From a virus: DNA of 20,029 nt. The stretch spans positions 1 through 20,029 of the IMG/VR virus record IMGVR_UViG_3300007346_000343; one strand, written 5' to 3'. Both the position numbers and the translations under genes were made by a program. The first letter of the stretch is position 1; the number at the start of each line of letters is the position of its first letter. Below are positions 2,291 through 10,971 of the stretch, in pieces. The notes beneath the pieces were generated by a model. The model had not been told where the DNA came from and made no database searches. It saw nothing but the letters and a program-made list of their open reading frames with translations.

Positions 2291-2737
2291 ATGAATATTG
2301 ATAAACTTAGAGAGGAAATTGCATATGACGAAGGAGTTGTTCACGAAATTTATTTGGATCATCTTGGGCTTCCCACTTTTGGTATTGGTCATCTTGTGCT
2401 TGAGAGCGATCCAGAACATGGACTACCCGTCGGAACGGCTATATCTGAGTCTAGATGCAATGAGGCCTTCGAATCAGATATCCAAACAGTCTTGTCTGAC
2501 TGCAACAAGCTTTACGAAGACTTTGAAGATCTGCCAGAAGAAGCTCAGAGAATAATCGCTAACATGATGTTCAATATGGGACGTCCTCGTCTCTCAAAAT
2601 TTAAAGGCATGAAAGCTGGAGTTGATGCTCGTGATTGGAATCGTGCTGCTGATGAGATGGTAGATTCTCGTTGGTATCGTCAGGTTACAAAACGTGCTGA
2701 TAGACTAGTAGAACGTATGAGAGCAATAGATGCTTAA
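2291..2737 (+). CDS. Endolysin, T4-type lysozyme (GH24)
   Basis: A 148-residue lysozyme that would cut the beta-1,4 bond between N-acetylmuramic acid and N-acetylglucosamine in peptidoglycan. The GH24 triad is intact: Glu14 in YDEG, Asp23 in YLDHLG and Thr29 in PTFGIGH, with the same spacing as Glu11, Asp20 and Thr26 of T4 lysozyme. The C-terminal region keeps the family pattern (MMFNMG near residue 92, SRWYRQVTKRADR near residue 126). There is no signal peptide or SAR segment, so release should need a holin, as in T4. An AGGAG site precedes the ATG. The 3' end overlaps the i-spanin start by 8 bases, tying it to a complete lysis cassette. It is slightly shorter than T4 lysozyme (164 residues). 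Confidence 0.93.
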   Translation: MNIDKLREEIAYDEGVVHEIYLDHLGLPTFGIGHLVLESDPEHGLPVGTAISESRCNEAFESDIQTVLSDCNKLYEDFEDLPEEAQRIIANMMFNMGRPRLSKFKGMKAGVDARDWNRAADEMVDSRWYRQVTKRADRLVERMRAIDA

Positions 2738-3233
2738 AATATACGCATTAATTATTATCTTAGGTATTTTAGGAGGAGTAGGATATAGTGCAAAGTACTA
2801 TTATGATACTACTCAAGCTACTATTGCTACATTAAGAGAAAATAATGCACAGCTTGAAGTAGCTGTACAAACAGCTACTGAAAGTATAGAGACACTTCAG
2901 GCAGATGCTGCAAAGATATCTAAACTAAACACACAACTTCAATCTGACTTACAAAAAGCAGAAGCATATACTGATGAGCTTCGTGGTAAGTTAAGTCGTA
3001 TGAACTTAGTAGTAGAAGCTTTAAAAGATGCAGCAGTATTAGAAGGAAAGATGAATGGCGCTACAGCAAAACTATGGCGTAACTTTATGGAAGACACTGG
3101 TAATACTGAGCAGTATCCTCTTCCTGAGTGGTTGCGTAGGGAGGACTCCGGAGCCGGAGATCAAAGTAGTAACGAAGATCGAGAAGACGCAAATACAAAT
3201 AGCGTCGAGACCGAAACCACTCCAGCTAGTTGA
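2730..3233 (+). CDS. Inner-membrane spanin (i-spanin, Rz-like)
   Basis: A 167-residue protein with one N-terminal membrane segment (about residues 4-21) followed by a long heptad-rich coiled coil (about residues 28-100) and a hydrophilic Glu/Asn/Thr-rich tail. This is the N-in, C-out topology of lambda Rz-type i-spanins, which join an outer-membrane lipoprotein to fuse the two membranes at lysis. Position is the strongest support: it overlaps the endolysin end and is itself overlapped in another frame by a lipoprotein gene. The tail from about residue 135 is low complexity, as expected where the DNA must also code for the o-spanin. Spanins diverge too far for sequence identity to help, so the call rests on architecture and synteny. 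Confidence 0.82.
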   Translation: MLKIYALIIILGILGGVGYSAKYYYDTTQATIATLRENNAQLEVAVQTATESIETLQADAAKISKLNTQLQSDLQKAEAYTDELRGKLSRMNLVVEALKDAAVLEGKMNGATAKLWRNFMEDTGNTEQYPLPEWLRREDSGAGDQSSNEDREDANTNSVETETTPAS

Positions 3234-3465
3234 TACTAGAGTAAGAGTAGTTACTAAAGACACCTTAGATACTTTTTTATCTGAGTTTGAAGAACAGTAT
3301 GGTAATATTGTTTTTGTGGCTTTAAGTATGCAAGATTATGAAAATCTCGCCTTAAATATAGCCGATTTAAAAAGATATATTAATCAACAGAAAGAAATTA
3401 TAGTGTACTATGAAAAAATAGCTACTGATGAGGAAGACGGCGCCTCTATAGAAATAAAAAATTAA
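3055..3465 (+). CDS. Outer-membrane spanin lipoprotein (o-spanin, Rz1-like), overlapping the i-spanin
   Basis: A 136-residue protein whose first 179 bases lie inside the i-spanin gene in a different frame. Residues 12-27 form a lipoprotein signal ending in the lipobox LSGC, so Cys27 should be lipidated and anchored in the outer membrane. Mature residues 28-50 are Pro-, Lys- and Glu-rich. The ATG at 3055 is preceded by AAGGA at 3043-3047, a normal site placed inside the i-spanin gene. Phage Rz1 genes are typically nested in or overlapping Rz, so the overlap itself supports the assignment. It is longer than lambda Rz1; residues about 65-136 continue as a helical, charged periplasmic region that could contact the i-spanin. 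Confidence 0.85.
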   Translation: MALQQNYGVTLWKTLVILSSILFLSGCVGRTPEPEIKVVTKIEKTQIQIASRPKPLQLVDTRVRVVTKDTLDTFLSEFEEQYGNIVFVALSMQDYENLALNIADLKRYINQQKEIIVYYEKIATDEEDGASIEIKN

Positions 3466-3495: not shown

Positions 3496-3963
3496 ATGCT
3501 AGATCCAGTTTCAGCGTTAGCAACCGCATCTGCGGCTTTTAATGTTATTAAAAAAGGGTTTGAAGTAGGAAGAGATATAGAACAAATGGCAGGCGACTTA
3601 GGTCGCTGGATGGGTGCAATGTCTGATCTTTCTGAAGCTGAACACCAAATTAAAAATCCTCCGATCTTTAAGAAACTTTTTGCTGGCAAGTCAGTTGAAC
3701 AAGAAGCGATGGAGATATTCGCGGCAAAGAAAAAAGCCGAACAAATGAGAGAAGAACTCAAGCAATATATCCAATGGTCACTTGGAACAAGAGCTTGGGA
3801 TGAACTCATTCGAATGGAAGGTCAGATCCGTAAAGAGCGTCAAGAAACTCTTTATAACCAAGCTCGTAGGCGACAAAAGTTCGTAGAGATACTTACTATT
3901 GGTATTGCAATAAGTATAGGTATTGTTTTGTTAACAACTGCTGCACTGGTATTAAAAGGATGA
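3496..3963 (+). CDS. Unknown protein, helical with a C-terminal membrane anchor
   Basis: A 155-residue protein of unknown function. It starts at an ATG preceded by AAAGGA. Residues 1-30 are an Ala-rich helix without a charged signal n-region. The middle (about residues 65-125) is a strongly charged, helical, coiled-coil-like stretch with AKKKAEQMREELKQYIQW, and residues about 131-153 form a hydrophobic segment ending in Lys-Gly, a tail anchor. Such a protein would face the cytoplasm with its C terminus in the inner membrane. From memory this type of sequence recurs in marine T4-like phages without a known role. The stop overlaps the next start as ATGA, so the two genes are coupled. Confidence 0.75.
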   Translation: MLDPVSALATASAAFNVIKKGFEVGRDIEQMAGDLGRWMGAMSDLSEAEHQIKNPPIFKKLFAGKSVEQEAMEIFAAKKKAEQMREELKQYIQWSLGTRAWDELIRMEGQIRKERQETLYNQARRRQKFVEILTIGIAISIGIVLLTTAALVLKG

Positions 3964-4193
3964 TCCACGTATTTTTACTTATGGTATATTTGGGCACTGG
4001 TGATGATAGACGACTTATCTCAAATGATATGTATTTTAGAGATATAAATGATTGTAACTATTTTGCAAAAGAACTAACAAAAACCTATGGTAATTATAAC
4101 TATAATGACTTTATTGACCCAAGAGACAAAATAACTGCTTATTGTACCCCAAAATATATCAATGAGGGAACAGTAAGTATTAACATTTATTAG
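3960..4193 (+). CDS. Small unknown protein, possibly exported
   Basis: A 77-residue protein starting in an ATGA overlap with the upstream gene. The N terminus (residues 3-12, HVFLLMVYLG) is hydrophobic but short and lacks basic residues, so it could be a weak signal or just a buried strand. The remainder is Asp-, Asn- and Tyr-rich with two cysteines (Cys32, Cys62), compatible with one disulfide if exported. There is no recognisable domain. It directly precedes a run of genes with clear signal peptides, which makes an envelope location plausible but not shown. Confidence 0.6.
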   Translation: MIHVFLLMVYLGTGDDRRLISNDMYFRDINDCNYFAKELTKTYGNYNYNDFIDPRDKITAYCTPKYINEGTVSINIY

Positions 4194-4201
4194 GAGATTT
4201 T

Positions 4202-4741
4202 ATGTTTAAGTGGATAGTATTATTTTCAGCACTATTAGTATCAACTGTTGTATATGCTGAAGTGATTGAGACGGACTCAACTACAAGAAGTACTGTGACT
4301 ACAAATGGTGAAATGACTACTACAGTAAAATCACCACCACCTTCTGCTATTTCACCACAATTAGGGGCGAATAGTAATAGTGATTTGTGTACGATCGGTG
4401 TAGCTGGCGCAGTACAAACACAGATTCTTGGTATCTCTGCGGGTACTACATTTACCGAAGAGAATTGTTTAAGGCTTAAGAATGCTAAGACTCTATATGA
4501 TATGGGAATGAAAGTCGCTGCTGTTTCTGTCATGTGTCAAGATGAAAATGTATTTGATGCCATGATGATGGCAGGAACACCATGTCCTTATGAAGGTCAA
4601 ATTGGTGAAGCTGCAAAGATTGGTTGGGAATCACATGAAGAGTCTCAATTAGAAAAAGTTGGGGCTGAGGAGAAAACAAATGTTAAAGAGACTGCTACTT
4701 GGGGCATTGGTGGCCTTCTCACCCTCTTACTCTTACTCTGA
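4202..4741 (+). CDS. Exported protein of unknown function with four cysteines and a hydrophobic C-tail
   Basis: A 179-residue protein with AGGAG just upstream of the ATG and a clear Sec signal peptide (residues 1-19, cleavage likely after VVYA). A Thr/Ser/Pro-rich linker (about residues 24-55) leads to a compact domain with Cys63, Cys89, Cys112 and Cys128, enough for two disulfides; motifs include DLCTIGVAGAVQ and AGTPCPY. The last dozen residues (GIGGLLTLLLLL) are hydrophobic and could insert into a membrane. Those last codons also encode, in another frame, the signal peptide of the next gene. It resembles, from memory, an uncharacterised protein common in marine phages. An envelope location is strongly suggested; the function is unknown. 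Confidence 0.75.
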   Translation: MFKWIVLFSALLVSTVVYAEVIETDSTTRSTVTTNGEMTTTVKSPPPSAISPQLGANSNSDLCTIGVAGAVQTQILGISAGTTFTEENCLRLKNAKTLYDMGMKVAAVSVMCQDENVFDAMMMAGTPCPYEGQIGEAAKIGWESHEESQLEKVGAEEKTNVKETATWGIGGLLTLLLLL

Positions 4742-5573
4742 GAGTATTGCTCCATACTTTGGAACGACCGGAAATGCTGCAGCAGGTGGAACGACTTGGA
4801 GTATGGATAACGTGCTTCCAACACCTCCGGGCCTCGATATTAATGGAGTGATTTATAACTATACAATTCAAAAAGATGTTGATGACTCAGTTAATGTTCA
4901 TGTTCAGAATGAAAATGCTGCTGGTACTGGATATATTTTTAGAGAAACCGATGAGTGGAAGCCCGGGTCTCTTGGTGGTACAGAGATAAGAAAAGTGGTG
5001 CCAGTCATTCCTAATATTCCAAGAACATCTTGGGGAGATGGCTCAATTGAAGTAGAAGGAGAAGGCTCAGTTACAGATCCTAATGTGGTTTATATGTATA
5101 AAGTAGATCCGTGCTTTAATCCACAATTCGACCCTAATTGTCCTGGATATGAAGTACCGATTCCGGATGTAACAGTCTCAATTGAAATATACGATGCAAC
5201 TAAAGATGAATATGTTAACTTAAATAATGATGAAAGAGTTTTGCTTGAAGAGAATGAAAAAACAGTTGAAGAAGAATTAGATGAAGACGAAGAGGAAGAA
5301 GAGAAGCGTAAAAGAGAATATCGATTAGCTATGTTAGCTGATACAAATGCTGCTCAACTTTTTGCCGAAAGCCAAAGAATACAGCAAATGAATGAGATTA
5401 TGCAGAATCAAATGAATCAGACTTATTTAAATAAAGTCATTAATGGTGGCGTATATAATGAAACAATTAAATTAGTTGATAAGAAAATTGAGGATAATAA
5501 GCAAGGTTTAAGAAATGGTCTTGCACAACAGTTATTGCATGAACAAATGGTGAGCATGCAATATTCTAATTAG
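4680..5573 (+). CDS. Exported protein of unknown function with acidic coiled-coil C-terminal half
   Basis: I place the start at the ATG at 4680 rather than 4659, because GAGGAG at 4667-4672 is correctly spaced for it and the resulting N terminus (MLKRLLLGALVAFSPS) is a proper signal peptide. The protein is then 297 residues. The mature N-terminal part is Gly/Asn/Thr-rich and beta-like. Residues 143-157 contain DPCFNPQFDPNCPGY with its only two cysteines (Cys145, Cys154). Residues about 188-212 are extremely acidic, followed by a Gln/Asn-rich helical region to the end. The first 62 bases overlap the upstream gene. A filament, adhesin or periplasmic scaffold are all possible; I know no characterised homologue. 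Confidence 0.72.
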   Translation: MLKRLLLGALVAFSPSYSYSESIAPYFGTTGNAAAGGTTWSMDNVLPTPPGLDINGVIYNYTIQKDVDDSVNVHVQNENAAGTGYIFRETDEWKPGSLGGTEIRKVVPVIPNIPRTSWGDGSIEVEGEGSVTDPNVVYMYKVDPCFNPQFDPNCPGYEVPIPDVTVSIEIYDATKDEYVNLNNDERVLLEENEKTVEEELDEDEEEEEKRKREYRLAMLADTNAAQLFAESQRIQQMNEIMQNQMNQTYLNKVINGGVYNETIKLVDKKIEDNKQGLRNGLAQQLLHEQMVSMQYSN

Positions 5574-5582
5574 GAGAATATA

Positions 5583-6086
5583 ATGTTCAATAGAATATTA
5601 CTAATAACAGTATTAATAATATCAGCAACTAAAGTTATTGCTGAAGAAGTTCCGATTCAAGGTACAGTGCAGTCTCGTTGTGTTATAACAACAGATACCC
5701 CAGGTGTCTATGGGAACCCAAATGCATATACCCTTACAACTGCATCTGCGGATGGTGGTGTACAACCTATCGTAAGATATGATGTAACACTTGCTAATGC
5801 ATATTATGCTCAGATCACTACACCAACTTCATTTGCGCAAAGTCCTTCTTTGTCAGATACAGTTACATGGACTGGATCGACCGAAGTAAGCTCCGTATCA
5901 GATGCAACGAATATGGGTTCATACGAAACAAACAAAGTGACATTTGGTCAGACTACACAATATGATTTGACTGCGACTGGTTCAACTTGGTTTAAGTCCA
6001 GTTCAACTGCGACCTATGGTGGAAATAAAGCATTTCCGGGCGGATCATATACAGCTAATATTGAAGCTGTTTGTATAGCAAAATAA
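5583..6086 (+). CDS. Exported fimbrin-like beta-sandwich protein (tentative)
   Basis: A 167-residue protein with AGGAG before the ATG and a signal peptide (residues 1-20, cleavage after KVIA). The mature protein is Thr/Ser/Gly-rich and almost entirely beta-type. It has one cysteine near each end (Cys33 in VQSRC, Cys164 in EAVCIAK), the last followed only by IAK. Its layout, a Cys-containing first strand and a terminal strand after PGGSYTANIEA, is reminiscent of pilin-like and spore-coat-U-like subunits, in which a single domain is closed by terminal strands. That comparison is only of layout; no sequence identity is claimed. It sits between other exported proteins, which suggests a joint extracytoplasmic assembly. 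It could instead be an independent envelope-binding decoy. Confidence 0.7.
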   Translation: MFNRILLITVLIISATKVIAEEVPIQGTVQSRCVITTDTPGVYGNPNAYTLTTASADGGVQPIVRYDVTLANAYYAQITTPTSFAQSPSLSDTVTWTGSTEVSSVSDATNMGSYETNKVTFGQTTQYDLTATGSTWFKSSSTATYGGNKAFPGGSYTANIEAVCIAK

Positions 6087-6087
6087 T

Positions 6088-6459
6088 ATGATAAAATATA
6101 TAAGTATATTATTGGTATTACTAGTACCTTTATCTTCGTTTGCGCATGAGATGACTCCTACTTATCCTAAGTGGAGAATATCTTCATATGAAGGTTTATT
6201 AGTAACAGAAATGCAGATGTTTAATAAAAGATATGATGTAGAGTACTATGAAATAGCAGTATTAGATGAGGAATGGAATCCTATCCCTTTTGTATCTTCT
6301 TATAAAATATTTAAATTAGATTATCTTGGTAAAATAAATTTTGAAATTTATATTAGAGAGCAAGATAAAGATAAAGTAGAGTATGTATGTTCTAGGTCAA
6401 AAATGAGAGATAAAAAAGCTCCGGGAATTACTTCTATGATCTGCTCGAGATTTGAATGA
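6088..6459 (+). CDS. Exported Ig-like small protein of unknown function
   Basis: A 123-residue protein with a signal peptide (residues 1-19, cleavage before HEMTPTYP). The mature part (about 104 residues) has alternating hydrophobic strands and conserved-looking pieces MTPTYPKW, MFNKRYDVEYYEIAVLD and EYVCSRSK; cysteines at 101 and 119 could pair. The size and strand pattern resemble a single immunoglobulin-like domain, such as one half of a pilus chaperone, but the match is only structural guesswork. The ATG follows the preceding stop by one base with no strong ribosome binding site, so translation probably depends on coupling. Its position directly after the fimbrin-like gene is suggestive of partnership. 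Confidence 0.68.
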   Translation: MIKYISILLVLLVPLSSFAHEMTPTYPKWRISSYEGLLVTEMQMFNKRYDVEYYEIAVLDEEWNPIPFVSSYKIFKLDYLGKINFEIYIREQDKDKVEYVCSRSKMRDKKAPGITSMICSRFE

Positions 6460-6863
6460 GAAAATTTTTAATTATTATAAGCTTATTTCCTACTATAGCT
6501 TTAGCAGAAAGTAGTTCGTTAAACTTACAGCTACCAAATGCTGGTTCGTCATATGGGCAAGATGCATTTCGTTCTGGTGAAATGGATTGTAAAAACTCGA
6601 TTGGCGGTGGAACAAATCTAGAATTCGGGGTAACGGGAATTATTGATAATTATGAATCACCACTTAATCAAAATGACTCATCAGTAGGAAGTAGCACTAA
6701 AGATGTAGGTGTCTATGCTCGAATTACTATTCCGCTTGATGCGCCGAAAGAACGAATTAACTGTAATACACTATACCAATTAGAGTTAAAAAGGAAAAGG
6801 TTAGAAATATTAAAGCTTGAACAAGAGCTGGCAAGACTACAAGCGCTACAAAACGAGGAATGA
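6456..6863 (+). CDS. Exported protein with C-terminal coiled coil, unknown function
   Basis: A 135-residue protein beginning in an ATGA overlap with the previous gene. The signal peptide covers residues 1-17 (cleavage after IALA). The mature N-terminal domain has LNLQLPNAGSSYG, Cys45, a Gly-rich strand, then DVGVYARITIPLDAP and Cys103. Residues 106-135 form a regular Leu/Lys/Glu heptad helix able to oligomerise. The two cysteines are likely paired in the periplasm. It completes the run of signal-peptide genes from 4202. A trimeric or higher periplasmic stalk is possible; no known family is recognised. Confidence 0.72.
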   Translation: MRKFLIIISLFPTIALAESSSLNLQLPNAGSSYGQDAFRSGEMDCKNSIGGGTNLEFGVTGIIDNYESPLNQNDSSVGSSTKDVGVYARITIPLDAPKERINCNTLYQLELKRKRLEILKLEQELARLQALQNEE

Positions 6864-6977
6864 ATGGATAAGACTATATGGATTGTCTATGGTATAGTTG
6901 TTATTACTTCAATAGCAGCACTTCCATTTGTTGTAAGATTACAAACAATGCAGTCTTTTTTATCGATGTGCTTTTAG
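6864..6977 (+). CDS. 37-residue single-span membrane protein
   Basis: A short open frame starting with ATG directly after the TGA of the upstream gene, with GAGGA at 6855-6859 as ribosome binding site (a tight spacing of four bases). It encodes MDKTIWIVYGIVVITSIAALPFVVRLQ and a short polar tail, that is, one membrane span of about 20 residues. It fills what would otherwise be a 123-base gap in a region with almost no non-coding DNA, and the next gene's AGGAG follows its stop. It could be a small holin, pinholin or accessory lysis protein, but nothing specific shows this. Confidence 0.6.
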   Translation: MDKTIWIVYGIVVITSIAALPFVVRLQTMQSFLSMCF

Positions 6978-6986
6978 GAGAATTAG

Positions 6987-7586
6987 ATGGCAAAAGATTT
7001 AGGACAAGAACTTGAAAATATGGAAGAGAGTATCGAGAACCTAAAGAATAAAGAGTTTAGGATTCTTGGTATTAAAGTAACTTTCATGAGTGTATCAGCG
7101 CTTGTTGCTGTTCTCGGTTCTGTACTTGGTGCACTCTATGGTGGTTTCCTAATGTATCAGAAGGTTGAGCAAGCAATTGCGTTTGTTGATCAGCAGGAAG
7201 AATATCAAGAATTGATGGCATCGTATGATCAGCGTATGCAGATAATCGAAACGCAATTAGATGAAGCGATTGGATATGCCAGAGATATTAAAGGTGATTT
7301 GCGCGATGATATTCTTTCGATCGAAAAATCAGTCGATAGAATGGATGATAAAGTTCGTGAAGTAGAAGGTGAAGTTCGTGAAATTATTCAGAACGCAGAA
7401 GAGCGCTTTGAGAATAAAAGAGATGGTCTGCAGAATGACTATGATGAAAAAGCAAATCGTCTACAAGATAGCAACCAAAACCGTATGGATGACCTTGAAG
7501 CAAAGGTTGAACGTGATTTGAAGGATCTAGAAGATCGTCTCGGTAAGAAACTACAGAGAGCATTAGATAACCCACTAGCTAATTAA
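6987..7586 (+). CDS. Membrane-anchored long coiled-coil protein, unknown function
   Basis: A 199-residue protein with AGGAG before the ATG. Residues 1-24 are charged and helical, residues about 27-58 hold one long or two short hydrophobic segments (FMSVSALVAVLGSVLGALYG), and residues about 60-195 are an unbroken, highly charged coiled coil rich in Glu, Asp, Arg and Lys. The predicted picture is an inner-membrane protein with a rod of around 130 residues on one side. No enzyme motif is present. This architecture is shared with i-spanins, but a complete spanin pair is already encoded upstream and no lipoprotein overlaps here, so I do not call it a spanin. It might organise the membrane or virion assembly. 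Confidence 0.75.
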   Translation: MAKDLGQELENMEESIENLKNKEFRILGIKVTFMSVSALVAVLGSVLGALYGGFLMYQKVEQAIAFVDQQEEYQELMASYDQRMQIIETQLDEAIGYARDIKGDLRDDILSIEKSVDRMDDKVREVEGEVREIIQNAEERFENKRDGLQNDYDEKANRLQDSNQNRMDDLEAKVERDLKDLEDRLGKKLQRALDNPLAN

Positions 7587-7596
7587 GGAGCTTTAA

Positions 7597-8028
7597 ATGA
7601 TTAAACATATTAGTATATTTTTTGCAGTAAGTATTTTTTCTTTTACTGCATTAGCAGATAATTTTTTAGAGATGCGGGAATTCAGAGATAGGCTTTGTTA
7701 CGATGGGGACACCTGTTATGTATGGGCAAATTCATTACCTGAACCTCTAAATAAAATGAGTGTAAGAATATTAGGTATTGATACTCCAGAGATTAAAGGA
7801 GAGTGCGAAGAAGAAAAAGAACTCGCATTAAAAGGAAGAGAGTTAGCTAATAACTTATTTAGAAATGCAAAAAGTATAGAATTTAAAAATTTACAATGGG
7901 ATAAGTATGGTGGTAGAATACTAGTAGATGTAGAAATTGATGGTAAAAATTATGCAGATCAAGTTATTGAGGCTGGATTAGCCAGACCTTATTTTGGTGG
8001 AAAGAAGGAGTCTTGGTGTGATAACTAA
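7597..8028 (+). CDS. Exported staphylococcal-nuclease-family (thermonuclease) protein
   Basis: A 143-residue SNase-fold nuclease preceded by AAGGAG and a signal peptide (residues 1-20, cleavage after TALA), so it should act in the periplasm or outside the cell. The family's catalytic set is present: YDGDT with Asp38, VRILGIDTPE with Arg57, Asp62 and Glu65 (same spacing as Arg35, Asp40 and Glu43 of the staphylococcal enzyme) and YGGR with Arg107 (for Arg87). Four cysteines (34, 40, 70, 141) could form two disulfides. The enzyme would hydrolyse DNA and RNA with calcium. Possible jobs are degrading incoming competitor DNA in the periplasm or releasing nucleotides. The next gene starts inside its 3' end. 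Confidence 0.88.
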   Translation: MIKHISIFFAVSIFSFTALADNFLEMREFRDRLCYDGDTCYVWANSLPEPLNKMSVRILGIDTPEIKGECEEEKELALKGRELANNLFRNAKSIEFKNLQWDKYGGRILVDVEIDGKNYADQVIEAGLARPYFGGKKESWCDN

Positions 8029-8191
8029 GCAAGATCGTTATATAGCTTCAAGAATTGAACAATTAAAAGATGATATGGCTAAGGCACATGATGAAATGGA
8101 TAAAGCTTGGTATAATCGTTTAATACAAGAACTTGAATGGGTGAAACAAATGAGTGGAAAACCTACTCATAATTGTTACATGGGTGCATAA
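8018..8191 (+). CDS. 57-residue helical protein, unknown function
   Basis: The open frame extends upstream to 7994, but I choose the GTG at 8018 because AAGGAG at 8005-8010 lies seven bases before it. The product is a short, highly charged helix (MITKQDRYIASRIEQL onward) ending in a conserved-looking tail SGKPTHNCYMGA. It overlaps the end of the nuclease gene by 11 bases, so the two are co-translated. No domain is recognised. Both a nuclease partner or immunity-like role and an unrelated function are open. Confidence 0.65.
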   Translation: MITKQDRYIASRIEQLKDDMAKAHDEMDKAWYNRLIQELEWVKQMSGKPTHNCYMGA

Positions 8192-8467
8192 ATGGATTTA
8201 GTTGCTAGAATGTTTGATGATACACTATGGATTTATACAGCAATTGCTGGATCCCTTTTAGGTGCAGCATTTCTTGCGTACTTTAAAGATACGAGAGCCG
8301 GACTATGGTGTTATGCTAAGTTAGATCAGACTCTCGACTATCTGGTTGAGAGATGGGGTTGGACTTGGTTTGAACAACCAACTGATGCATGGAGAAAGAA
8401 GTATCCATATGTCACAAAGAAAATTGATGAACTTGAAAAACGAATTGAGGAATTAGAAAATAGATGA
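8192..8467 (+). CDS. Small membrane protein with C-terminal helix, unknown function
   Basis: A 91-residue protein whose ATG follows the previous stop with no gap. Residues about 12-31 (LWIYTAIAGSLLGAAFLAYF) form one membrane span; residues 33-65 are amphipathic and Trp-rich (RWGWTWFEQ), and the last 20 residues are a charged coiled coil (KKIDELEKRIEELENR). A peripheral or single-span inner-membrane protein is predicted. It shares its style with its neighbours to 9153, all small membrane proteins. A holin role is possible but there is no diagnostic motif. Confidence 0.7.
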   Translation: MDLVARMFDDTLWIYTAIAGSLLGAAFLAYFKDTRAGLWCYAKLDQTLDYLVERWGWTWFEQPTDAWRKKYPYVTKKIDELEKRIEELENR

Positions 8468-8805
8468 ATATAAAATTCGGAATAGGTGTTGTAGTTGCAA
8501 TTGTGTTACAAGTGTCAGCCTTTGTATGGTGGACCGCACAACAGGCACAAACTATTGAAACACTTAAAGAAGAAGTAAGTGAGCTTACAAGTAAAATGGC
8601 TCTTGAAAATGAAGTTAATATGGCGCGTGATGTTGCTGATATTAAAGAAAAATTAGTAGAGCATGAGCTGTGGATCACTGAAAATTATGAAGATATTGAA
8701 GATTTAATTGACTTTGCCACATTTACAGAAAATAGATGGGCTAAAGAATACACAAGTGATAACACTTATCAAAGAAAGTTTGGGGATAAGCAACCTCCTC
8801 AATAA
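8464..8805 (+). CDS. Single-span membrane protein with coiled coil, unknown function
   Basis: A 113-residue protein overlapping the upstream gene as ATGA. Residues 3-24 form a membrane span (FGIGVVVAIVLQVSAFVWW), followed by an amphipathic coiled coil to about residue 80 and a polar C terminus ending in Pro-Pro-Gln. It has the same N-anchored rod layout as the i-spanin but lacks an overlapping lipoprotein partner. It is transcribed in line with the preceding and following small membrane proteins. Function unknown. Confidence 0.72.
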   Translation: MNIKFGIGVVVAIVLQVSAFVWWTAQQAQTIETLKEEVSELTSKMALENEVNMARDVADIKEKLVEHELWITENYEDIEDLIDFATFTENRWAKEYTSDNTYQRKFGDKQPPQ

Positions 8806-8820
8806 CTTTAGGAGTTTAAA

Positions 8821-9153
8821 ATGGCAGAAGAAACTAAAACAATTGATGCAGCTGCAGTAGAGGGAATTGATGTAAATGGTGATGGTCACATCTCTAAAGA
8901 AGAGATGGAGATGCACCTCGAGTTTAAACGTAAGGCTCTAGAAGATGCTGATGCTCAGAGAGACGCTATTCGCAAAATGGCATGGTTCTCTTTAGTTGGT
9001 TTATTAGTTTATCCTATTGGGATAGCAATCACTTCTGCTTTTGGTATGGACAAGGCAGCAGGGTTGATCGCAGATATTGCGCCTACGTATTTTGCTTCTA
9101 TTGCAGTATTAGTCTCAGCATTTTTTGGGGCAGACGCACTTAAAAAGAAATGA
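8821..9153 (+). CDS. Two-span membrane protein with an EF-hand loop (holin candidate)
   Basis: A 110-residue protein with AGGAG before the ATG. Residues 17-28 are a canonical EF-hand calcium loop (DVNGDGHISKEE): Asp17, Asn19, Asp21, His23, Ser25 and Glu28 occupy the six ligand positions, with Gly22 and Ile24 in the usual places. A charged helix (residues 27-50) leads to two membrane spans (about 54-73 and 88-104) and the C-terminal tail KKK. With an even number of spans both ends lie on the same side, probably the cytoplasm. Size and two spans fit class II holins, and the genome's endolysin lacks a signal and needs one, but this is inference. The single EF-hand would bind calcium as a dimer if at all. 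Confidence 0.75.
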   Translation: MAEETKTIDAAAVEGIDVNGDGHISKEEMEMHLEFKRKALEDADAQRDAIRKMAWFSLVGLLVYPIGIAITSAFGMDKAAGLIADIAPTYFASIAVLVSAFFGADALKKK

Positions 9154-9314
9154 ACATAGAAGAAAAAATTGCTTGGATAAAGCAGCGTATTCATGACTTT
9201 TATTTAAAGTATCCTCAATATAAACATAAACCAGTTAAAAAAGAGGAAATAAAGAGTAATAATACTTTAAATAATAAACTATCACAGTTAAGGAAAACAC
9301 ACGATGGCAATTAA
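9150..9314 (+). CDS. Small basic protein (54 residues), unknown function
   Basis: A short frame starting in an ATGA overlap with the EF-hand gene and ending 11 bases inside the following fibre gene. It encodes MNIEEKIAWIKQRIHDFYLK followed by a Lys- and Asn-rich tail. The N-terminal half is an amphipathic helix; there is no membrane span or signal. It occupies the only sizeable gap in this stretch and is framed by overlaps on both sides, which supports it being real, but its ribosome binding site is weak (AAAGA) and composition is Lys/Asn-rich, as in random AT-rich DNA. Confidence 0.5.
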   Translation: MNIEEKIAWIKQRIHDFYLKYPQYKHKPVKKEEIKSNNTLNNKLSQLRKTHDGN

Positions 9315-10971
9315 TAGATTGAAACCAGGATATATTTCAAATATTACACATGACGGAAGTAATGCGGCTAACGAAACACTCGTTGCTTATAGTTCCGCCA
9401 ATAACAGAGTTGAGTTTTTAAGCTTAACTGCTGATACTACAGATAGAGACTTAGTATCTTCCAATCTAGATGCCTATGCCGCTCAACTTGATGCAAATGT
9501 AAATTCAATCTCTTCTAATGTAGACACTCTTGTAGCGGGTGTAGATGCTTCTGAAGTTTTGGTTAATACTGTTTCGGGTAATGTTGATTCTTTTGCTACC
9601 TATGCAAACTCTACTTTTGTTACTGAAGGTACTTCAGCTAATTCTTTTACCTCAATTGAGATTGTAGATGTAACTGCCGATACAACTAGAACAGGTATAG
9701 TAACAGCAAATGTTTCAGCTGATGAATTAACTTTTGTAGCTGGAAATGGTATTAGTTTTACAGCTAATACAGCTAGTCAAGAAATTACTATTGCTGCTAA
9801 ACTCAATGCTATTTTAAATGATAGATATACGGCAGATGGATCAGCTAATACCTTTACTCTTAGTAGAGCAGTAACAAATCATGATGAAATAATTGTATCT
9901 GTAGACGGTATTGTTCAAGTACCGAACACTAATTATACTGTCTCTTCTACTACACTTACTCTTGCTAACTCTCTTCCTATTATCAACGGTACACTAGTAG
10001 ATGTTAGACATTTACCAGTTACAGGATCAGAAGGTGAACTTAAAGTTATTCCACCTTTAGTCTATCAAGGAGAAACCGCAGGATATGCGTTAACAGGTTA
10101 TAATCAACCTAGTTCTGCTCCTTCTCCCTCAGATGTAATAGAGAAAATTTTATATACTTCTGATACAAATGCTGTAGATATCGCAGAAGGTGGAGTAGGA
10201 AATGATAGTATTTATGGTGGTGGTATAACTACTAACGACGTAGCTTATCAAGTTTATAGCGCTGGTCCTTCTTATGCGGGAATTAAAAGATTTCCATACG
10301 CTACAGAAACACTTTCTTCGCAGCTTGATAGTGCCGGTCCGGCTGATTCTGGCATGATTGCTGGTGCATCTTCTACTACTGCTGGTTACATACACGGAGG
10401 AAATGGAGGAGCTGCGAATAATTTATCTAAGTTTCCTTTTGCTACAGAAACTATTGATGGCGATATAGGCTCTCTAGCATCTTCCTCTACTGGAGGACAT
10501 GCTGCACATCAATCTGAAACGTTTGGCTATATTTCTGGAGGAAGAGGATCTCCAGGTAATCTTGTGATTGATGTAATACAAAAGTATTCCTTATCTTCAG
10601 ATTCTGGTACTACTGACATTGGAGAGACCGCTTCTGCTGATAGATTAAAAGGTACTGTTGGTTCCTCGTCTACAACAGCAGGTTATAGATTAGGTGGAGC
10701 TTCAACAAACGATCAATCAAGTACAAATATAGATAAATTTCCTTTTTCCTCAGACGCATCTGCAACAGATGTGGCAGAGTTAACAGGTAACAGGTTTAAT
10801 GGAGGAGCCGGAAGTTCAACAACATCAGGATACTATATAGGTGGTGCTTCTACTAATAATACTGGTTCTAATGTTATTGAGAAGTTCCCCTTTAGCTCAG
10901 ATGCTCCTGCAGCTTCGGTAGGTAGCCTAGTTATTTATAGAAGAGGCGGAAATAGTTTAGCTAATGATTAA
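9304..10971 (+). CDS. Tail-fibre-like protein with C-terminal Kelch-like beta-propeller repeats
   Basis: A 555-residue protein. The N terminus (MAINRLKPGYISNI) and residues 1-170 are Asn/Thr/Ser-rich with a helical trimer-like stretch (residues 45-85) typical of fibre shafts. Residues 170-245 form a beta module containing GIVQVPNTNYTVSS. From residue 279 there are about six tandem repeats starting at 279, 327, 374, 425, 476 and 525, a period of 47-51. Each has I-x-K-F-P-F, an acidic S-S-D/E segment, then a Gly-Tyr-x-x-Gly-Gly turn. This fits Kelch-like blades, with the C-terminal strand possibly closing the ring. The propeller probably binds a surface glycan or receptor. Cys is absent and there is no signal, as expected for a virion protein. 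Confidence 0.7.
   Translation: MAINRLKPGYISNITHDGSNAANETLVAYSSANNRVEFLSLTADTTDRDLVSSNLDAYAAQLDANVNSISSNVDTLVAGVDASEVLVNTVSGNVDSFATYANSTFVTEGTSANSFTSIEIVDVTADTTRTGIVTANVSADELTFVAGNGISFTANTASQEITIAAKLNAILNDRYTADGSANTFTLSRAVTNHDEIIVSVDGIVQVPNTNYTVSSTTLTLANSLPIINGTLVDVRHLPVTGSEGELKVIPPLVYQGETAGYALTGYNQPSSAPSPSDVIEKILYTSDTNAVDIAEGGVGNDSIYGGGITTNDVAYQVYSAGPSYAGIKRFPYATETLSSQLDSAGPADSGMIAGASSTTAGYIHGGNGGAANNLSKFPFATETIDGDIGSLASSSTGGHAAHQSETFGYISGGRGSPGNLVIDVIQKYSLSSDSGTTDIGETASADRLKGTVGSSSTTAGYRLGGASTNDQSSTNIDKFPFSSDASATDVAELTGNRFNGGAGSSTTSGYYIGGASTNNTGSNVIEKFPFSSDAPAASVGSLVIYRRGGNSLAND

Follow-up and report, generated by a model that had tools for sequence, protein, structure and literature searches.

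A conserved and apparently undescribed six-gene phage module of predicted exported proteins and one membrane protein, with pilin-like and PapD-like fold candidates

The window analysed here is the whole of a virus record, 20,029 bases in length, and by its genes it is a T4-like marine phage fragment encoding tail-fibre-type proteins, an endolysin, Rz-like and Rz1-like proteins, a ribonucleotide reductase and an exonuclease. All of the genes named in an earlier note on this DNA were present where it had placed them. Six genes, designated A, B, C, D, E and K after their order, lie on one strand and form the module described below, with the T4-type endolysin gene and the Rz/Rz1-like genes just upstream. 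The latter two overlap one another at 2730-3465 (PHROG 739 and 812), stand directly before the module and have relatives in Methylophilales phage Melnitz. T4-type late promoters (TATAAATA) were not enriched in the window. The features of the module are as follows.

4202-4741, + strand: A, secreted domain containing four invariant cysteines, followed by a hydrophobic C-terminal tail; PHROG 20531, function unassigned there
4680-4741, + strand: A/B overlap, out-of-frame, the same bases coding for the C-terminal tail of A and the signal peptide of B
4680-5573, + strand: B, secreted; N-terminal domain, acidic linker and conserved C-terminal segment ending LLHExMVxMQY
5583-6086, + strand: C, secreted, with a predicted and weakly pilin-like beta-sandwich fold and a donor-strand-like N-terminal extension (VPIQGTVQSRC)
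6088-6459, + strand: D, secreted single Ig-like domain with the predicted fold of the PapD N-terminal domain
6456-6863, + strand: E, secreted, two invariant cysteines and a charged, helix-like C-terminal stretch
6864-6980, + strand: optional small transmembrane ORF (38 aa), found in a minority of relatives (10 loci)
6987-7586, + strand: K, single-TM coiled-coil protein with the conserved C-terminus DNPLAN; obligate last member

The earlier note had proposed a block of exported proteins, all with even cysteine counts, and its counts (2, 4, 2, 2, 2, 2 and 4) were correct on recount. The signal peptides it had assigned to A-E were borne out as predictions across homologues, in that a crude custom heuristic (a hydrophobic core plus an A-x-A-like site, not SignalP) was passed by 41 of 44 A, 53 of 53 B, 43 of 44 C, 50 of 51 D and 49 of 50 E proteins. 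Parity of the counts is by itself weak evidence; the stronger part of the argument came from alignments of 44-53 homologues per protein, in which the mature cysteines were invariant in A (all four, 44/44), C (both, 44/44), D (both, 51/51) and E (both, 50/50), and the pair in B was kept in 45 of 53 proteins and half-kept in none. Thus, the even parity in these five proteins is not due to chance; the odd counts seen in some homologues were caused mostly by cysteines within the signal peptide. Export and disulfide bonding of A-E are well supported as predictions.

The description of adjacent and coupled genes held for A-E, with the corrections that A and B overlap by 62 nt and that K had been omitted. 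Among relatives the overlap measured 62-83 nt and kept the same relative frame in 51 of 51 pairs, and the hydrophobic tail of A was present in 41 of 44 homologues. A matched PHROG 20531 (6e-15), and B-E fell into no informative family. The C-terminal segment of B was shared with the long second protein of one relative, L189 (2.6e-17), and weakly with that of HTVC115P (0.001). This B-like protein of L189 (665 aa; positions 7479-9476) carries repeated Cys-Pro-Cys-Gly-Tyr units (e.g., QCSLDPLYNQGCTGY), and B of the window has a single such unit around C145-C154. At the C-terminus of K, NP[LM] fell within the last 9 residues of 164 of 174 K proteins versus 14 of 6626 other ORFs. With the PADLOC profiles of anti-phage defence systems, all matches to K were of the coiled-coil type, the best being ZorA (5e-6), and A-E gave none.

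Relatives were collected from IMG/VR in separate seed sets (B and C; A; E; D), and the resulting loci were scanned with profile HMMs of all six genes. The four seeds yielded 275 distinct seed proteins (69, 77, 67 and 62 per seed), every one of them in a collinear locus, with all recognised members on one strand and no exception to the order, although the sets share contigs and these counts do not equal independent phages. A preceding count had given the same order in 183 of 183 loci. In a non-redundant set, 110 loci contained A-E, and 101 of these also contained K; L189, which has A, the 665-aa protein and K, was the only locus lacking C-D-E where room for them existed. Relatives in IMG/VR numbered at least 543 for E and at least 552 for A, and carrier contigs reached 328 kb. 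The flanking genes (labelled by our own reading of the sequences unless PHROG or Pfam is cited) included gp32-like, PhoH-like and thyX-like genes in some loci and terminase, capsid-type or unrelated lysis genes in others. Because the flanks differ so widely between loci, the block travels as a cassette; and since so strict an order of six genes persists across several hundred viral contigs, the module must be important for its carriers. The proposal that the genes constitute a single system, for which non-conserved gene order had been named as a refutation, therefore came through this comparison, and we regard A-B-C-D-E-K as almost certainly one system. The databases used assign no function to any of its proteins, and literature searches found nothing on this module, returning phage curli papers instead and turning up no virion proteomics of the carrier phages. 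The block is thus a genuine phage module that is both widespread and conserved and that appears not to have been described before, in keeping with its nomination as a candidate for an undescribed system.

Among 50,697 phage records searched by tblastn, B, C, D and E had no match, and A matched 11 records: pelagiphages HTVC023P, HTVC033P, HTVC115P, HTVC202P, Baldr and Mosig, roseophages CRP-207 and CRP-810, and three uncultured genomes. All 11 encode, downstream of A, a K-like TM coiled-coil protein whose sequence ends in NPL or NPM, and usually a single large protein bearing a secretion-type N-terminus is encoded between the two; a few small genes intervene in some (e.g., HTVC115P), and no protein is annotated in between in MW202675. 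The K HMM matched strongly in HTVC115P and weakly in the others where it was run, so that several of the K-like assignments are based on gene position, protein architecture and the motif at the C-terminus. In several of these records the second protein begins with a region that resembles carbohydrate-binding domains but scores below the Pfam cut-off, and it contains a long acidic linker. We infer that the arrangement of A, an intervening protein and K is the older core and that C-D-E is an extension of it. As this reduced form occurs in cultured SAR11 and Roseobacter phages, the module is testable now.

A bacterial origin of A was considered and rejected. A was found in 1 of 385 alphaproteobacterial genomes and in none of the other 384, and the sole positive was a metagenome bin in which A occurs on five different contigs. 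The four of its contigs that were retrieved through E contain the module with its gene order unchanged, although one ends before A; this argues for phage contigs in the bin and against a bacterial operon. The bin, Rhodobacteraceae Water_Bin34 (loci L106 and L108-L110), thus appears to be a case of phage contamination of a reference genome, and the module appears phage-specific.

The clearest structural signal came from D. Its structure, predicted with AlphaFold2 from the D alignment (pLDDT 88), returned chaperone-usher chaperones or their complexes (DraB, FaeE, Caf1M, PapD, SfaE and FimC) as all of the 23 best PDB matches (best E 1.4e-4, TM 0.64 on the query), although the Ig fold is a common fold type; against viral predicted structures only mixed Ig-like proteins were obtained. 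The mature form would comprise about 104 aa, with C101 and C119 on the last two strands. An invariant His (51/51) is the predicted first mature residue, directly after the signal-peptidase site; an N-terminal His is also known from some copper-binding periplasmic proteins.

C had the highest mean column identity of the five exported proteins (62%), and its predicted structure (pLDDT 87, poorly ordered up to about residue 32) gave pilins as best matches, namely CfaB, the PapG pilin domain, FimF and FimG, with CsuA/B and Caf1 lower; these matches were weak (E 0.008-0.09, none below 1e-3), and other sandwiches were intermixed. After the signal peptide, C reads V-x-I-x-G-x-V-x3-C, parallel to FimF, FimG, FimA and FimI of E. 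coli K-12. This donor-strand-like motif, which was defined after inspection of the sequence, occurred in 36 of 44 C proteins versus 4 of 4271 background ORFs. The C profile also matched the CRP-810 capsid protein weakly, which was dismissed as chance (E 0.4 when scaled). Profile and pairwise comparisons of C and D with PapD_N, Fimbrial and SCPU revealed no sequence relation, in a setting where the SCPU-versus-Fimbrial control was also weak, and for D there was no Pfam match to PapD_N. On the strength of the models, a fold-level likeness of C and D to pilins and chaperones seems rather probable to us, that of D being more secure than that of C.

The resemblance to chaperone-usher pili has several parts: D has the predicted fold of the N-terminal domain of the PapD/FimC/Caf1M chaperones; C is predicted to be a pilin-like sandwich (FimA/FimG/CsuA-B) with a candidate donor-strand-type N-terminal extension in front of a cysteine, and its C-terminal GxY motif recalls SCPU; and the genes for the subunit-like and chaperone-like proteins are adjacent, as they are in those systems. 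Unlike them, however, D consists of one domain and has no conserved N-terminal arginine (the first invariant Arg is R48), the two cysteines of C lie on the first and last strands, C-D is embedded with A, B, E and K, and sequence homology is not detectable. In 30 large carrier records, 29 of which yielded E and some of which are fragments, no usher (PF00577) was found over the cut-off. With neither an usher nor sequence homology, a likeness of fold is claimed and membership of the chaperone-usher family is rejected. Even so, the predicted folds suggest that C and D may function in the manner of a pilus subunit with its chaperone despite the absent usher.

A second point of comparison is the curli/type VIII secretion genes of pelagiphages (CsgG, CsgF, CsgA/B and FecR), which are likewise a multi-gene exported block carried between marine phages and have been proposed to act in sibling capture, superinfection defence or lysis timing (PMC9599517, PMC9004378). 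The present module differs in having no recognised curli component and an entirely different gene set and order. The CsgG pore (PF03783) was found in 0 of the 30 large carrier records, the control genomes being positive, and a curli identity was therefore rejected.

Lysis-type genes are frequent in the neighbourhood of the module. Of the 86 loci whose flanks were usable, 63 had a lysis-type gene no more than 4 kb away, and the remaining 23 had no recognised one nearby. The gene after K often encodes a holin or holin-like protein (a 3-TM holin), with an endolysin gene next, and the endolysins after K are of at least four unrelated kinds (Hydrolase_2, GH19, GH108 and T4-type lysozyme). The commonest of the downstream lysis-type matches, 38 in number, was an EF-hand TM protein that is holin-like by architecture only. 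The window encodes such a protein at 8821-9153; it is a frequent neighbour of K, a similar-looking one follows K in CRP-207, and it is possibly a calcium-responsive holin. The position of the module fits late expression around lysis, and the combination of exported proteins with a TM coiled coil fits an envelope assembly. The earlier note had proposed modification of the host surface, an extracellular structure or a block to superinfection, and the predicted fold likeness of D and C is compatible with such roles. Since the module lies next to holin, endolysin and spanin genes, however, an involvement in lysis, which the note had not raised, is no less probable than those surface readings.

Our main reading, to which we assign a probability of about 0.4, is that the products of this one gene module form a late, phage-specific assembly in the envelope of the infected cell. 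Going by the predicted folds, C would be the pilin-like subunit, its N-terminus resembling a donor strand, and D its one-domain PapD-like partner. Position and architecture suggest that K would hold the assembly at the inner membrane, that A, B and E would be periplasmic or located at the outer membrane, and that the whole may be an envelope-spanning complex acting late, around lysis. As to its effect, we slightly favour a remodelling or weakening of the outer envelope at release over a shielding of the cell from other phages. Should an envelope structure of this kind prove true, marine phages would give infected cells an appendage or release apparatus of their own, beyond the reported curli genes.

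The best surviving alternative, possible though on balance doubtful, is a surface appendage or shield in which C polymerises by donor-strand exchange with the help of D, B and E serve as anchors or tips, and the product blocks superinfection or gathers sibling cells, as proposed for pelagiphage curli. The chaperone- and pilin-like folds and the rank of C as the most conserved of the five proteins speak for it, as do the weak CBM_4_9 carbohydrate-binding signal in B-like pelagiphage proteins, the placement of the module after tail-fibre genes in many loci and the fact that phage-made surface systems have already been proposed for marine phages (PMC9599517). Against it stand the lack of an usher or CsgG pore in the 30 large carrier records, the missing second domain and N-terminal arginine of D, and the lysis genes that are frequently close by. 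We know of no other export route for such an appendage. The boldest form of the idea, an usher-independent fibre system of pilin-like C and the one-domain PapD-like chaperone D, anchored via A, B, E and K, built late in the envelope of infected aquatic bacteria and carried as a cassette by unrelated phages that range in size from small genomes up to a contig of 328 kb, is rather unlikely.

Improbable in our judgement is a role in lysis proper, with A-B-K as an alternative spanin-like system for outer-membrane disruption to which C-D-E were later added. The module shares with two-component spanins (Rz/Rz1) a TM coiled-coil protein, overlapping frames and a lysis neighbourhood: the out-of-frame A/B overlap recalls nested spanin genes, and K adjoins an endolysin in HTVC023P and lies near holin and endolysin genes elsewhere. 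When K was checked as a spanin-type inner-membrane partner, it had one TM segment plus a coiled coil, and the positive-inside test gave 86 of 169, a near-even split that favours neither orientation. Unlike spanins, however, A-E include no o-spanin-type lipoprotein; their alignments contain no conserved lipobox-type Cys, only scattered signal-peptide Cys, and A and B carry no lipoprotein signal. Rz/Rz1-like genes, moreover, stand beside the module in some relatives as well as in the window, where a separate pair already present would make a pure spanin role redundant. Virion components or entry proteins whose N-termini happen to be signal-like are very unlikely, since, although several loci have the genes in the company of tail-fibre and other late genes, a run of five Sec-type signals together with invariant cysteines in the mature proteins suits an oxidising periplasm and not virion assembly in the cytoplasm, and the module sits in contigs with quite different late regions.

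Two genes that the earlier note had counted in the block, those at 3960 and 7597, proved not to be members, because some relatives lack the first and those that have it carry it at differing positions, and few have the second. The gene at 7597-8028 encodes an exported SNase-type nuclease with four cysteines (Pfam SNase, 2.5e-7), which lies near the module in a minority of relatives. The gene at 3960 travels jointly with the one at 3496 (PHROG 32327; the pair spans 3496-4193), and, depending on the relative, the two precede A, follow K or lie on the opposite strand; the pair is a second small mobile unit.
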